From positions 1 to 64,000 of the IMG/VR virus record IMGVR_UViG_3300010885_008506: DNA of 64,000 nt; one strand, written 5' to 3'. This document shows, in pieces, positions 22,788 through 42,128 of this stretch. Made by a program: the position numbers and the translations under genes. A model generated the notes under the pieces. It had not been told where the DNA came from, did no database searches, and worked only from the letters and a program-made list of their open reading frames with translations. Position 1 is the stretch's first letter. Each line of letters opens with the position of its first letter. The stretch comes from a virus.

Positions 22788-22795
22788 TATTTATA
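22788..22795 (-). promoter_or_regulatory. T4-type late promoter (TATAAATA)
   Basis: A perfect TATAAATA on the minus strand in the 53-bp gap between gp25 and gp6. It ends 19 nt before the gp6 ATG, implying a leader of about 13 nt with an AGGG ribosome site. The gp55 sigma factor encoded in the same window recognises this box in T4. Confidence 0.8.
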
Positions 22796-31217: not shown

Positions 31218-31246
31218 TTGACATCTATATTTATAGTCGCTAAAAT
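31218..31246 (+). promoter_or_regulatory. Sigma70-type early promoter for gp55
   Basis: TTGACA at 31218-31223, a 17-nt spacer, then TAAAAT at 31241-31246: a consensus -35 and a one-mismatch -10 at ideal spacing. Transcription would begin near 31253 and give a ~40-nt leader to the gp55 ATG at 31293. The opposing late promoter box lies inside the spacer. Confidence 0.75.
31228..31235 (-). promoter_or_regulatory. T4-type late promoter (TATAAATA)
   Basis: A perfect TATAAATA on the minus strand, ending 19 nt before the start codon at 31209. It would drive the leftward baseplate block. It lies within the spacer of the opposing early promoter. Confidence 0.82.
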
Positions 31247-31292
31247 AGTCAGATAATTACTATAATTGGCGTTTTTACAACTAAGGAACCAC

Positions 31293-32078
31293 ATGAAGTA
31301 TCTAACAAACAAAGATCTGCTACGCGAAATTCATTTGAGTAAGAACAGCTACTGTTCCTACGTTGCTAAGACCGACTCAACTTACGACCTAATCCTGCCC
31401 AGTGTTGAGCGCATTAATAGGCTAACCATTAGCCAAGCGCGTAAAGCCCGCGCAACTCGTATGGAAGTTGAAGCTAAGGCAACAGGCACACCGATCGAAG
31501 TAGATCCAAAAGATATTGCAGTTACGGATATTGTGTTCCGTATCATGACTTGGGATCATATCCCGCTAAGTCCTGGACGTAAGAAGACCCCAAAGATTAC
31601 TAGTGACCACCACGTAAAGGTAAACTTCCCTCCCTTCCAACACTACAAGCTCACAGATGAAAAGGCACCATTTTGTGTGGGTAAGAGCCATTGGCGTGGT
31701 GACATCGAAAGTGGTCACTATTGCAGGGACAAGGGCAAAATGACAGACAATCTAGCTCGCATGTTCCTCAAGCTTTGCGAGCGTTATAGTAGTCGCAGCA
31801 ACTGGCGTGGATACACTTACGTAGATGAAATGCGTGGGCAAGCACTACTACAGTTGAGCATGATTGGACTACAGTTTGACGAAAGCAAGAGCTCAAATCC
31901 TTTTGCTTACTACACTGCTGCTATTACCAACAGCTTCACACGTATTCTCAATACCGAAAAGCGTAATCAAAACATTCGAGATGACATTCTTGAAATGAAT
32001 AATCTTAACCCCAGCTATACGCGCCAGCTTAACAATGAAGAAGCCATGCGTAAAGCCAGAGATCATGGTGATGAGTAA
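31293..32078 (+). CDS. gp55: Late-transcription sigma factor gp55
   Basis: About 261 residues; T4 gp55 is 185. gp55 binds host RNA polymerase and recognises TATAAATA boxes, switching transcription to head and tail genes. The sigma region-2-like core is in the C-terminal half: ARMFLKLCERYSSRSNWRGY, EMRGQALLQLSMIGLQFD, NPFAYYTAAITNSFTRILN, followed by a basic EKRNQNIRDD stretch. ATG 31293 is chosen because TAAGGA lies just upstream and the longer frame starts with TTG. It is the first gene of a rightward cluster with gp47 and gp46. Its promoter is sigma70-like, so it can be made early, before the promoters it serves. Confidence 0.9.
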   Translation: MKYLTNKDLLREIHLSKNSYCSYVAKTDSTYDLILPSVERINRLTISQARKARATRMEVEAKATGTPIEVDPKDIAVTDIVFRIMTWDHIPLSPGRKKTPKITSDHHVKVNFPPFQHYKLTDEKAPFCVGKSHWRGDIESGHYCRDKGKMTDNLARMFLKLCERYSSRSNWRGYTYVDEMRGQALLQLSMIGLQFDESKSSNPFAYYTAAITNSFTRILNTEKRNQNIRDDILEMNNLNPSYTRQLNNEEAMRKARDHGDE

Positions 32079-37704: not shown

Positions 37705-37723
37705 CGTTTCAGCTATATACTTG

Positions 37724-38146
37724 ATGTGGACATTTCAAGGACAGGAAGTAACGGATCTTCCCGACGATATTGTGGGGTTTGTATACTGTATTACTAACCT
37801 AGCTAACGAGCGAATGTACATTGGCAAAAAGCTAGCTAAGTTTGCTAAAACTACCTACAAAACAGTTAAACTTAAGAACGGAAAGAAGAAACGCAAGAAG
37901 ATACGGGGCAAAGTAGAAAGCGATTGGCGTGACTACTACGGGTCCAGTAATGAACTAACTCGCGATGTTGAAGCACTGGGCAAGGACAAGTTTGCCCGTG
38001 AGATACTGTTCTATTGCCACAGTAAAGCTGAATGCTCTTATGTAGAAGCCCGCGAACAGATCCAGCGACGTGTGTTAGAAAGTGATCAGTTCTATAACGG
38101 GCATATACAAGTACGTGTGCATAAGAAACACATACGTAAATCTTAG
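37724..38146 (+). CDS. GIY-YIG nuclease domain protein
   Basis: 140 residues. The two-part signature is GFVYCITN (GIY position) and MYIGKK (YIG position), followed by a basic loop KNGKKKRKKIRGK, a DWRDYYGSS motif, LGKDKFAREIL, and YVEAREQI that supplies the family's late Glu. This layout matches small GIY-YIG proteins seen in T4-like phages. It may act as a free-standing endonuclease on DNA; homing activity is possible but not shown. The start is ATG 37724, one codon after an in-frame TTG. Its 3' end overlaps the convergent gp26 frameshift frame by 4 bases. The gene-free region lies directly upstream. Confidence 0.75.
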   Translation: MWTFQGQEVTDLPDDIVGFVYCITNLANERMYIGKKLAKFAKTTYKTVKLKNGKKKRKKIRGKVESDWRDYYGSSNELTRDVEALGKDKFAREILFYCHSKAECSYVEAREQIQRRVLESDQFYNGHIQVRVHKKHIRKS

Positions 38147-38379
38147 AAGAACGGTAGTCCGGACTTCTTGGTAGTTTCCAAGTTTTCTTTGTAAATCTCC
38201 GCAATAATATTACGATCGTCGTAACTTAGCATTAGTGCTTGATCTAGTGAGATCGCGCCGCGCATGCTCCAAGCTAACTTATAACAATCTTCCCTAATCT
38301 TGAGACAGTCTTTTTGATATGCATCGCAAAGCTCCTCAATTTCCTCAACTGTTAGTTGCTGGAGCCTCGAGCGAAAAAA
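38143..38379 (-). CDS. Second frame of gp26, reached by -1 frameshift
   Basis: This frame overlaps the 3' end of gp26 in the -1 frame and encodes LQQLTVEEIEELCDAYQ, then YKLAWSMRGAISLDQALMLS and ends ENLETTKKSGLPFF. No start codon with a ribosome site opens it: after the overlap the first in-frame ATG is deep in the domain. It is therefore most likely translated as the C-terminal part of a gp26 fusion of about 354 residues. Similar small domains follow gp26-type hub genes in related phages, sometimes annotated gp51-like. An independently initiated protein from within gp26 (about 96 residues from 38433) cannot be excluded. Confidence 0.6.
   Translation of the reverse strand, partial: FFRSRLQQLTVEEIEELCDAYQKDCLKIREDCYKLAWSMRGAISLDQALMLSYDDRNIIAEIYKENLETTKKSGLPFF
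38329..38379 (-). promoter_or_regulatory. Programmed -1 frameshift signal in gp26
   Basis: The gp26 codons AAT TTT TTC contain the slippery heptamer T-TTT-TTC (38379 to 38373). A 5-nt spacer is followed by a 7-bp stem (38367-38361 pairing with 38335-38329, one G-U) that encloses a CAACT/AGTTG hairpin. The zero frame ends at TAA 38354-38352, while the -1 frame stays open to 38143. Confidence 0.6.
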
Positions 38380-39206
38380 TTGGTAGCGTCGAACTCCAGT
38401 TCCTGCTTCCACTTGTGTTGGCATTCCTGACATTCAACTTGGATTGGAGCCAGACTAAAGCTTTCCTTGTTGTTTGTGATACACTTGTTAATGCTGTCAA
38501 ACACATCGCTGCTGGTATTTTGTATGAAGTCTTCAATCATTGATCGATCGGTAACTTGTGTACCATCGGGTGTTTGGATACATGCAATGCTGTCCAGTAC
38601 AATTTCCAACGTTAGTGAAGTTAGCTTCTTAAATCCTTCGCTAAACTTTTTAATTTTGGTTGCTTCGTCTAGACTACTTTGCTGAATTTCCTGTAGTAGA
38701 CGCTGTTCTTCAAATGTTCTGTACTGTTTGTTATTCAGCTGACGGTATGTCATGGGTTTGAGCACAATGGTTAGCTCGTTTGCGTGAATGTAATCGTTCC
38801 ACACTCTGTGCAGCGTTTGTGCTTGTGCTTCCTTAAGGTCCAGCTGATAATTGTTAACAGCTTTACACTGCGGGCAATCAGGGCTAACGTCCATCATGCT
38901 ACCGTATGTTGCAATTCGTATGGCAATTAACAAGGTGTCGAGGTCTACACTGGGAATATTCCATGCATTTTTGATGGCAGGAACACAGCTTTGGATAATA
39001 TCCACAGTGCCCTGTCCGTTTAGCAGTGCGTCTGGCGTTTTAAGCGAAATCTCATCTTTTGCTGTCATGGGCATGATGCCAACTTCGCCCGTTGCGGGCC
39101 AATCAATGCTGCCGGGTTCGTACCATCTGCCTCCACTAGGCAAGGGAGTATAGTACTTAGCCTGTCTAAAATATGAACTCAGCGGGTTATTTTTAATTTC
39201 TGACAT
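38352..39206 (-). CDS. gp26: Baseplate hub protein gp26-like, zinc-ribbon
   Basis: 284 residues. Family marks are YFRQAKYYTPLPSGGRWYEPG, MPMTAKDEISLKTPDALLNGQ, SCVPAIKNAWNIPSVDLDTLLIAIRIATYG, as in T4-like baseplate hub (gp26-type) proteins. Two Cys pairs, C111-x-x-C114 and C259-x-x-C262, form a probable zinc ribbon. ATG 39206 is chosen over a longer frame because GGAAG lies upstream and the family sequence begins there. It is divergent from the tape-measure gene. Its last codons overlap a second frame and carry a -1 frameshift signal. It probably helps assemble the hub or tail tube rather than being a major virion part, as with frameshifted tail chaperones elsewhere (inference). Confidence 0.82.
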   Translation of the reverse strand: MSEIKNNPLSSYFRQAKYYTPLPSGGRWYEPGSIDWPATGEVGIMPMTAKDEISLKTPDALLNGQGTVDIIQSCVPAIKNAWNIPSVDLDTLLIAIRIATYGSMMDVSPDCPQCKAVNNYQLDLKEAQAQTLHRVWNDYIHANELTIVLKPMTYRQLNNKQYRTFEEQRLLQEIQQSSLDEATKIKKFSEGFKKLTSLTLEIVLDSIACIQTPDGTQVTDRSMIEDFIQNTSSDVFDSINKCITNNKESFSLAPIQVECQECQHKWKQELEFDATNFFARGSSN

Positions 39207-39244: not shown

Positions 39245-39252
39245 TATAAATA
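39245..39252 (+). promoter_or_regulatory. T4-type late promoter (TATAAATA)
   Basis: A perfect TATAAATA on the plus strand in the divergent gap, ending 24 nt before the tape-measure ATG at 39276. It would start the rightward tail-head transcript. Confidence 0.8.
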
Positions 39253-39275: not shown

Positions 39276-42128
39276 ATGGCTAACTCAATAAACATTAACG
39301 GCACAGAATACAGGATAGAAGGCGACGACCTCGCTACTGAGGCAACCCTACGAAGTTTAGTTGCTGCAATGAATCGTCTGGCTAGTGCAAGTGCCCGCAG
39401 CGGGGGAGGTAGTAGCAATGCCGGTGGCGGAGCTGCAGATGCCGGCGCCGCACTAAATCAAGGACTCGATGAAGTTGCAGGTAACCTAGATGATATGAGC
39501 GGATCTGTGATTCGAATGAATACTCAAAATAATGAGATTATACGATTACAGGGCGGAACTGCTAAGGGATTTAATATATTAGGCGGTGCAGCTAAGGCAT
39601 TAGGCGGCGCGTTTAAGCTAGTCCAAGGCGCATTCATGATTGGCGTTGCTATCGTTAGTGCAGCATTTGGTGCAGTTGACAAGATGGCAGATACTGTTAA
39701 AGAGATGAATGCGTCTGGTATCAGATTTCAAGGTGGATTTGCCGAACTAGCAGCCGCTGCAGGATCTGCAGGTTTAAGTGTAGAAGAACTTGGACGATTA
39801 ATGACGCAGAATCATGCTGCGGTTGCTCGTTTTGGCGGCGGCAATATGAATGAAGGAGCTAAAAGATTAACAGCATTTAGTCGAGAATTGGTATTTGGCA
39901 AAGCTAAGTTAGCAGGATTGGGCATTGGAGTTAGCGAAGCAGCGCAATATCTTGCCGACTATGCTGATATCCAACAGAACTTAACACACCAAGATATTAC
40001 TCGAGCACGTGCCGGAGAAACTGCAGCAGATGTTCAAAAGAGAGTAACAGCAAGTACTGCCGATTATGTTTCGGACTTAGACTCCCTTGCAAGATCCACA
40101 GGTAAGACCAGAGAAGAAATGAATAAGATGATGGCAGATTTTGCAAAGAATCCAGATTTTACTGCTACCCTTGATATGCTTGGTTTAGCAGGCGAAGAAA
40201 AAAATAGTGTAATGAAATTTGCCACAATGTTACAAGGTTTACCAGGAGGCGAAACATTAGTAAGTGCTTTTGGTGATTTATTACAGTTTGGTACTATGAC
40301 AGGCGATACTGCTGCAGCATTTGCAACAGTAGGTCCGCAACTTCAAAACACATTCACTGGAATTGCAGATAAATTGAAATCTGGTGCAATAACAGAAGAA
40401 CAAGCTCGCGACGAAATGGCAAATGCTATGGGAGACAACGCCGAGCAAATATCTAAGACACTTGGTGCTATTCCACAAGCACAACGTACTCAGGCACAAA
40501 AAGATTTACTCATGGCAGCAAATGCGGCCAAAGCAAACAAGGCTGCAAGAGAAGGCGAAGTTATAGAGTTTATGAAGACAGCAGCGGGCAGAAATAAAAC
40601 ATTTGCCGAAGCAGAAAAAGCAATGAACGATCAGCGCAGTGCAGAGCTAGAGTCACAAAAGCAATTACAAGATATCAAGACTAAGTTTGGCGGCATGTTT
40701 GAAAGTTTGATACTAAAGATATTTGGCAGCAAGGTCTTTCTGACGTTGTTTGATAAAATTACAACAGGATTTCAAACTCTCGCAGATTTTATCTATTCCG
40801 CAATAAAGAAAGTGGATCCTTATATTGCAAAGTTTGATACAGTAGTAATGCCTATTGTAAACAAGATGATAAAATTCTTCTCGGACGTATTTGGCAAAGT
40901 ATCTGAAATTTTAGGAAAAATTGATATCACTAGTGCATTAAGCATACTTGGTGAAATTTTTGATCAGATATTAACGTTCGCTAACACTGTAGTTAATGCT
41001 ATTGACTTTAAGATGATTGGAGACATATTTACACAGGTATTTGGAACAGTATCTGATGTTCTTCAGAATTTATGGGGAAGAGTTAAAGATATATTCTCAA
41101 AACAAGAAGGCGGTATGGGCGGAACTCTTGCCAAATTGGGCGAAGCTCTTGGTAAGATTGTCAATGCACTGGGTAAGGTCATTAAAGTAGTAGTCAAAGT
41201 ATTTAAACTTCTGTATGATTGGGTATTACAACCCATTATGGACATACTTGGACCAATCATTGGAACTATTGTGAACGCCCTTGTTGGAGTAATTGATATA
41301 TTCGGAAGTCTTGCAGACTACTGGACAACGCTCATTGATTTCTTTATGGGCGATGCATCGTTCTCGGAAGTCTTTGACAAATTTATGGCTGTATGGACAA
41401 GTATTGGAAATTATCTGATAAACGGATTGAAAGATTGGGGCAAAATGTTAATGAGTCCGTTTGTTTCAATATACAATCATTGGGTACGAATATTCAACAC
41501 TGTTGGCGACTTTGTTAAAAATGTATTTGGCGGGTTTGATATTGGGGTAATATTGACTAAGGTAACAGATTCTATCAAGAATGTATTTGCCGGCATCGCC
41601 AAATGGTGGAAAGAATTCTCATTCATGGATATGTTGAACTCCATTACTGATGCGATCAAGGGACTGTTTAGCAGTATTGGCAATTACATCAAGGACAAGT
41701 TAAATCCTCTCAATTGGTTTAAGAAAGATAAAAAGGGCGCAGCAGCAGCACCGCCACCAAAAGATCTTTCTAAATCTACTATTCCGGCAGAAATTAATAC
41801 AATACCTGAAGGGCAGCGCACACCTATTCAGAACCGAATACTAGAAGTACAAAAAAATCCAATGGCGATGCTCAAACCTTTGCCAGCTGCACCAACAACT
41901 CCTGCAGCAACAGGCGCACCTGCAGCCGCTACAGCGTTAGCGAAACCAGCAGCTGGCGTAGGGAAAGTAGTAAATACAGATGACTTAGTAAAAAAGATAT
42001 CTGCTCAAATTGATATGATGACTCAGGTGTTAATGGCGATAGAAAAACAAGGCGAGGAGAAACCAGGTATGGTATCTGGTGCATTTTCCTCGCTGACAAA
42101 GAAAGCTGCGGCTCTCGGACTTCCTTAA
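39276..42128 (+). CDS. Tail tape-measure protein
   Basis: 950 residues with tape-measure character: a Ser/Gly/Ala-rich N-terminus, hydrophobic stretches (GAFMIGVAIVSAAFGAV near 125; a GPIIGTIVNALVGVIDIFG segment near 670), long amphipathic helices and a Pro/Ala-rich linker near 820-890 before a final helix. Such proteins set tail length and are ejected into the host membrane. The equivalent in T4 is gp29, but sequence identity is not evident. It is the first gene of the rightward head block and follows a late promoter; no strong ribosome site is seen before its ATG. The portal gene follows after 11 bp. Confidence 0.75.
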   Translation: MANSININGTEYRIEGDDLATEATLRSLVAAMNRLASASARSGGGSSNAGGGAADAGAALNQGLDEVAGNLDDMSGSVIRMNTQNNEIIRLQGGTAKGFNILGGAAKALGGAFKLVQGAFMIGVAIVSAAFGAVDKMADTVKEMNASGIRFQGGFAELAAAAGSAGLSVEELGRLMTQNHAAVARFGGGNMNEGAKRLTAFSRELVFGKAKLAGLGIGVSEAAQYLADYADIQQNLTHQDITRARAGETAADVQKRVTASTADYVSDLDSLARSTGKTREEMNKMMADFAKNPDFTATLDMLGLAGEEKNSVMKFATMLQGLPGGETLVSAFGDLLQFGTMTGDTAAAFATVGPQLQNTFTGIADKLKSGAITEEQARDEMANAMGDNAEQISKTLGAIPQAQRTQAQKDLLMAANAAKANKAAREGEVIEFMKTAAGRNKTFAEAEKAMNDQRSAELESQKQLQDIKTKFGGMFESLILKIFGSKVFLTLFDKITTGFQTLADFIYSAIKKVDPYIAKFDTVVMPIVNKMIKFFSDVFGKVSEILGKIDITSALSILGEIFDQILTFANTVVNAIDFKMIGDIFTQVFGTVSDVLQNLWGRVKDIFSKQEGGMGGTLAKLGEALGKIVNALGKVIKVVVKVFKLLYDWVLQPIMDILGPIIGTIVNALVGVIDIFGSLADYWTTLIDFFMGDASFSEVFDKFMAVWTSIGNYLINGLKDWGKMLMSPFVSIYNHWVRIFNTVGDFVKNVFGGFDIGVILTKVTDSIKNVFAGIAKWWKEFSFMDMLNSITDAIKGLFSSIGNYIKDKLNPLNWFKKDKKGAAAAPPPKDLSKSTIPAEINTIPEGQRTPIQNRILEVQKNPMAMLKPLPAAPTTPAATGAPAAATALAKPAAGVGKVVNTDDLVKKISAQIDMMTQVLMAIEKQGEEKPGMVSGAFSSLTKKAAALGLP

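Follow-up and report, generated by a model that had tools for sequence, protein, structure and literature searches.

A predicted programmed -1 frameshift would yield two tail-assembly chaperones from one gp26-like gene in T4-related and jumbo-type phages

The 64,000-nucleotide stretch of DNA from a freshwater phage analysed here (positions 1 to 64,000 of IMG/VR record IMGVR_UViG_3300010885_008506, in the following the window) contains a gene related to gp26 of phage T4 that ends in a slippery heptamer overlapped by an open -1 frame. Judged from sequence comparison, programmed -1 frameshifting in this gene is strongly supported, and it is very probable that the one gene thereby provides two tail-assembly chaperones. 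Most ribosomes would terminate at position 38352 and release a short form of 284 residues. On T-TTT-TTC, a fraction would move back by one base, aided by a stem-loop that begins a few nucleotides downstream, and read on to a long form of 354 residues that gains a further domain at its C-terminus. In analogy to the G/GT proteins of phage lambda, the mixture of both forms would bind the adjoining tape measure protein and guide the assembly of hub and tube. The sequence features, their conservation, the homologies and the paralogy are documented below, whereas slipping in vivo, its efficiency and the chaperone action are inferred.

Table 1 Features at the gp26-like locus of the window. The table indicates the feature, its position, the strand and the supporting data.
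Feature	Position	Strand	Supporting data
gp26-like gene, zero frame	38352..39206	-	short product, 284 aa; PF12322 72.8 bits; phrog_150 E 2.9e-24; AF2 pLDDT 88
Slippery heptamer T-TTT-TTC	38373..38379	-	sequence; conserved in 128/129 related loci
-1 frame from slip site, C-terminal domain of the predicted 354-aa long product	38143..38379	-	76 codons open past FF; relatives carry homologous -1 domains; T4 gp51 C-terminus by hhalign, prob 67.5
Candidate stimulatory stem-loop, 9-bp stem around 5-bp hairpin	38327..38369	-	fold -13.6 kcal/mol, z -1.04 alone; family-wide z -1.97 here
Tape measure protein gene, divergent; likely client	39276..42128	+	phrog_58 tail length tape measure E 3e-20

The slip site and the overlapping -1 frame

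The short product matches the PF12322 profile (T4_baseplate; gp26/gp51) over residues 36-278, which is most of the protein, with a score well above the curated cut-off of 24.5 bits. Among viral structures, its AF2 model is best matched by that of a T4-like baseplate hub assembly protein (TM 0.88). The 3' end of the gene, on the minus strand, reads AAT TTT TTC GCT CGA GGC TCC AGC AAC TAA, with the stop codon at 38354-38352. Slipping by -1 on the heptamer would lead to NFF-RSRLQQLTVEEIEEL... and to termination at the TAA at 38145-38143, and by sequence the two predicted forms have their N-terminal domain in common. An earlier sequence-only reading of this DNA had placed the heptamer at 38379-38373 in the correct frame, the ends of the two frames at 38352 and 38143 and the products at 284 and 354 residues; the codons, both stops and both lengths were reproduced. 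An open reading frame on the plus strand (37721-38146) meets the -1 stop tail to tail with an overlap of 4 nt. The top PHROG label of this frame, 'NAD synthetase' (phrog_447), seems doubtful, because homing endonuclease families were matched as well.

Among the 19,952 codons of 30 window genes, the slip site is the sole in-frame occurrence of T-TTT-TTY. To follow up the conservation in relatives that the same reading had proposed to check, 129 related loci were drawn from viral contigs and phage records, and T-TTT-TTC was present 0-11 codons ahead of the gp26 stop in all of these except one. Past the heptamer, the -1 frame is open for 58-77 codons in every untruncated locus. Heptamer, register and open -1 frame are kept among phages whose gp26 proteins are only ~30% identical, so that a slippery X-XXY-YYZ sequence in the zero frame and an overlapping -1 reading frame are conserved together in divergent relatives. 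The exception (L086, ~2200-2391) carries gp26 and the -1 domain in one frame. This cyanophage-type fusion resembles a 2-nt deletion at the slip site and is the only PF12322 copy of its 236 kb contig; it may be either real or an assembly error. A protein of Vibrio 2.275.O used as query found no relatives among the contigs.

The conservation extends to synonymous codon choice. In 57 genes with less than 80% identity, which were recruited from a few seeds and are partly dependent lineages, codon identity averaged 0.64 over 173 two-fold sites and reached 100% only at TTT, TTC and the preceding codon. The FF pair was encoded as TTT-TTC in all 57 genes compared to 19% expected from codon usage, although these lineages are not fully independent. 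A T run lying near the end of gp26 by chance next to an unrelated open frame, or a sequencing error, would be in line with the window's stem being not significant when considered alone (see below). The occurrence of the heptamer across very divergent phages speaks against both, as do two other contigs, L002 and L003, which encode a gp26 identical to that of the window and of which L002 has the same heptamer and -1 reading frame; the probability left to this explanation is negligible. A chance heptamer was rejected on account of the conservation and of its uniqueness among the window codons.

The -1 domain shows codon periodicity, its mismatches falling mainly on third codon positions (0.24, 0.13 and 0.44 for positions one to three). 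The claim that the -1 frame has no usable start codon was correct for most of the family, where no start lies near the slip site, but not for the window, in which the -1 frame contains ATGs at 38433 and 38424, upstream of the slip and inside gp26. These are not conserved in relatives. The second frame could therefore be read as a separate small gene, expressed by coupled translation or by reinitiation at the gp26 stop, on account of these ATGs, of further ATGs one or two codons past the slip in Phosso, Atu_ph07 and 121Q that are possible starts for a second reading frame, and of the GenBank records of 121Q, BF, Phosso, P-SSM4 and KVP40, which list separate reading frames overlapping or abutting the gp26 stop. 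Yet in freshwater-type relatives a -1 stop lies 3-11 codons upstream of the slip and a search of the -1 frame detected no ATG, GTG or TTG for 14-38 codons past it, while the domain is conserved from FF onward. Furthermore, a separate gene leaves the invariant synonymous codons of the heptamer unexplained, and T4 gp51 contains the domain fused to a gp26-like part. We thus consider this explanation very unlikely, and a separate gene with its own start is disfavoured by the lack of start codons near the slip in most relatives.

The annotation of the second frame is incomplete in Atu_ph07 (L005, 3933-4055), where the record contains only a 123-nt piece of the -1 domain, though the frame is open from the slip site. 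In Rhodothermus phage RM378, the gp26-like gene ends with ESFFWNKL* in a T run, and it is the +1 (or -2) frame instead of the -1 frame that stays open for ~70 codons (FFGISYDSEEELEKIVVERY...). As far as the sequence goes, this suggests a frameshift in a different direction.

RNA signals around the slip site

The stem that had been proposed 5 nt past the heptamer exists and can be extended to 9 bp (38369-38361 with 38335-38327, including two or three G.U pairs depending on the register), but folded alone it is no better than shuffled sequences. When 60-nt windows of the 57 genes were compared with dinucleotide shuffles, the mean z was -1.97 right after the heptamer, with 51% of the values below -2, compared to -0.7 to +0.35 at all other offsets. 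A folding signal is thus seen across the family at this place only, while the window's own stem reaches a z of -1.04. As to the conservation of the stem, the freshwater group has a 10-bp stem with pairing in 90% of cells, far more than in slid versions, but with few compensatory changes and weak covariation.

A different signal was found in the cyanophage loci (L035-L114), which contain a Shine-Dalgarno (SD)-like GAGGG 9 nt before the heptamer. The mean duplex energy at this site is -7.1 versus -0.2, and the codon GAG is used in 28 of 34 cases versus 31% elsewhere in the same genes (P 1.8e-9). The motif is absent upstream of the heptamer in the window type and in the jumbo types. Its spacing in the cyanophages resembles that of the dnaX stimulator of E. 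coli.

The same two proteins would also arise if RNA polymerase slipped on the run of six T, which is extended to seven in HTVC008M, Cr30 and phiM12, and thereby shifted part of the mRNA. However, six T are short for polymerase slippage, and such slippage predicts neither RNA structure right downstream nor an SD-like site at fixed spacing in the cyanophages, which makes it most unlikely. For ribosomal frameshifting, we favour with some reservation a scheme in which slipping is stimulated in two ways, by GAGGG 9 nt upstream together with a stem in the cyanophages and by a stem without GAGGG in freshwater and jumbo phages; this assessment applies jointly to the two stimulators and to the ancestry of single-gene frameshifting considered next.

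Relation to T4 gp26 and gp51

T4 gp26 and gp51 both belong to the PF12322/phrog_150 family, as does the short product of the window. Searches of whole records revealed two PF12322 copies in T4 and one copy each in S-PM2, P-SSM4, HTVC008M, phiM12, Cr30, W-14, KVP40, Atu_ph07, Phosso, 121Q and RM378. Apart from RM378, these single-copy genes (10 of 11) end in T-TTT-TTC or T-TTT-TTT followed by a -1 domain, with a run of six T outside the three phages with seven. The heptamer is absent from gp26 in the six two-gene phages whose gp26 ends were examined, namely T4, Acinetobacter 3014, Aeromonas 31, Proteus phiP4-3, RB43 and KP5. As judged from sequence, a slip appears to provide short and long forms in almost every relative sampled beyond the T4 coliphage group.

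Homology to the C-terminus of T4 gp51 was recognised for the -1 reading frames of cyanophages and of KVP40. Those of P-SSM4, annotated there as 'gp51', and of KVP40 match phrog_634, which is the gp51 family. Profile comparison of the cyanophage -1 domain with the C-terminus of T4 gp51 gave an hhalign probability of 96 (E 1e-9); the window-type domain gave a moderate match (P 5e-5; probability in Table 1), and the -1 domain of the window itself had no match among the PHROG families. T4 gp26 and gp51 are paralogues, so that T4 devotes two genes to what a single gene appears to provide in most of the relatives sampled. Like the window, for which both are predicted, T4 has a short and a long form, the latter with a related C-terminal extension; T4 uses two genes, a gp26 without heptamer and a gp51 fused in frame, whereas the window, like KVP40 and the cyanophages, has one gene and a slip site. 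That the short form is the counterpart of T4 gp26 and the long form that of T4 gp51 carries the same high confidence as the frameshift and chaperone explanation of which it is part.

In RB43 and KP5, a gp51-like and a gp26-like gene stand in tandem, which is consistent with a duplication. As part of the same scheme as the two stimulators, it is rather probable that gp26 of T4-related and jumbo-type phages originally relied on frameshifting within one gene, which the T4 group replaced by duplication into gp26 and gp51.

The adjoining tape measure gene and known chaperone systems

The gp26-like gene adjoins a tape measure gene in divergent orientation. The analogy to lambda G/GT beside a tape measure gene, drawn in the sequence-only reading, is borne out by this neighbour, which matches phrog_58. 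Tape-measure-like neighbours are also present in L142 and BF, and no tape measure gene was detectable beside the gp26-like locus in L120, L123 and L147. A protein family labelled 'head and packaging' (phrog_14121; members L008 660-2861 and L007 777-2924) is matched by the window's tape measure protein, and the BF member also matches tape measure families; in 121Q/BF-like phages, phrog_14121 probably represents the tape measure protein. Three sites of the window, at 39245-39252 (+), 31228-31235 (-) and 22788-22795 (-), carry the T4 late promoter core TATAAATA. This number is not above chance, though each copy lies shortly upstream of a gene start, including that of the tape measure gene. The window also contains a late sigma factor gene (31266-32078).

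T4 gp26 and gp51 are listed among the hub assembly chaperones in a review (PMC3004832). Because of this listing, the tape measure neighbour and the G/GT-like arrangement, we consider it likely that short and long gp26 act as tail-assembly chaperones for the adjoining tape measure protein in the manner of G/GT. Searching the window model against PDB folds revealed no significant match to known chaperones, and the HK97 chaperone (HK97 gp13, 2OB9) matched the model of the cyanophage-type L086 protein weakly (E 2.3, prob 0.44).

Frameshifted tail assembly chaperones, among them lambda G/GT, were reportedly treated by Xu, Hendrix and Duda in 2004 and by Levin et al. in 1993. In the lambda system, as predicted for the window, a gene neighbouring that of the tape measure protein gives rise to short and long products through a -1 slip close to its 3' end; unlike in lambda, the two genes of the window stand in divergent orientation, and no sequence relation was detected. 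In the chaperone locus of Vandenendeviridae and Andersonviridae, described for phage Adele (PMC12846349), a myovirus chaperone gene likewise has a conserved -1 frameshift on poly-T at its end, but the motif there is GTTTTT and the phage families are others.

The sequence-only reading was unaware of the work on tail-assembly chaperones of T4-like phages, and the frameshift is less new than it had suggested. According to the summaries in two later papers (PMC10885494, PMC12846349), tail assembly chaperones of T4-like phages were identified by Vladimirov, Gautam and Davidson (Virology 2022). These papers state that in some T4-like phages a short gene is accompanied by a long, fused one (PRFect paper, PMC10885494) and that poly-T slip sites are known in chaperone genes of T4-like phages (phage Adele paper, PMC12846349). 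On these summaries, the window is therefore a further case of a known strategy. Our search of the open literature found no paper describing such a frameshift in gp26 of cyanophages or jumbo phages. What is added here is the wider range, which takes in freshwater and jumbo-type phages, together with the two stimulator designs.

The proposed frameshift would account for the relatedness of T4 gp26 and gp51, two hub-assembly proteins with an unclear role. It would also mean that a single long protein is annotated in two parts, a hub gene and a small 'hypothetical' or 'gp51' reading frame, in the records of cyanophages, KVP40 and jumbo phages, and it offers a testable fusion peptide in many cultured phages. 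The family may represent a natural case in which a frameshift was apparently replaced by gene duplication.
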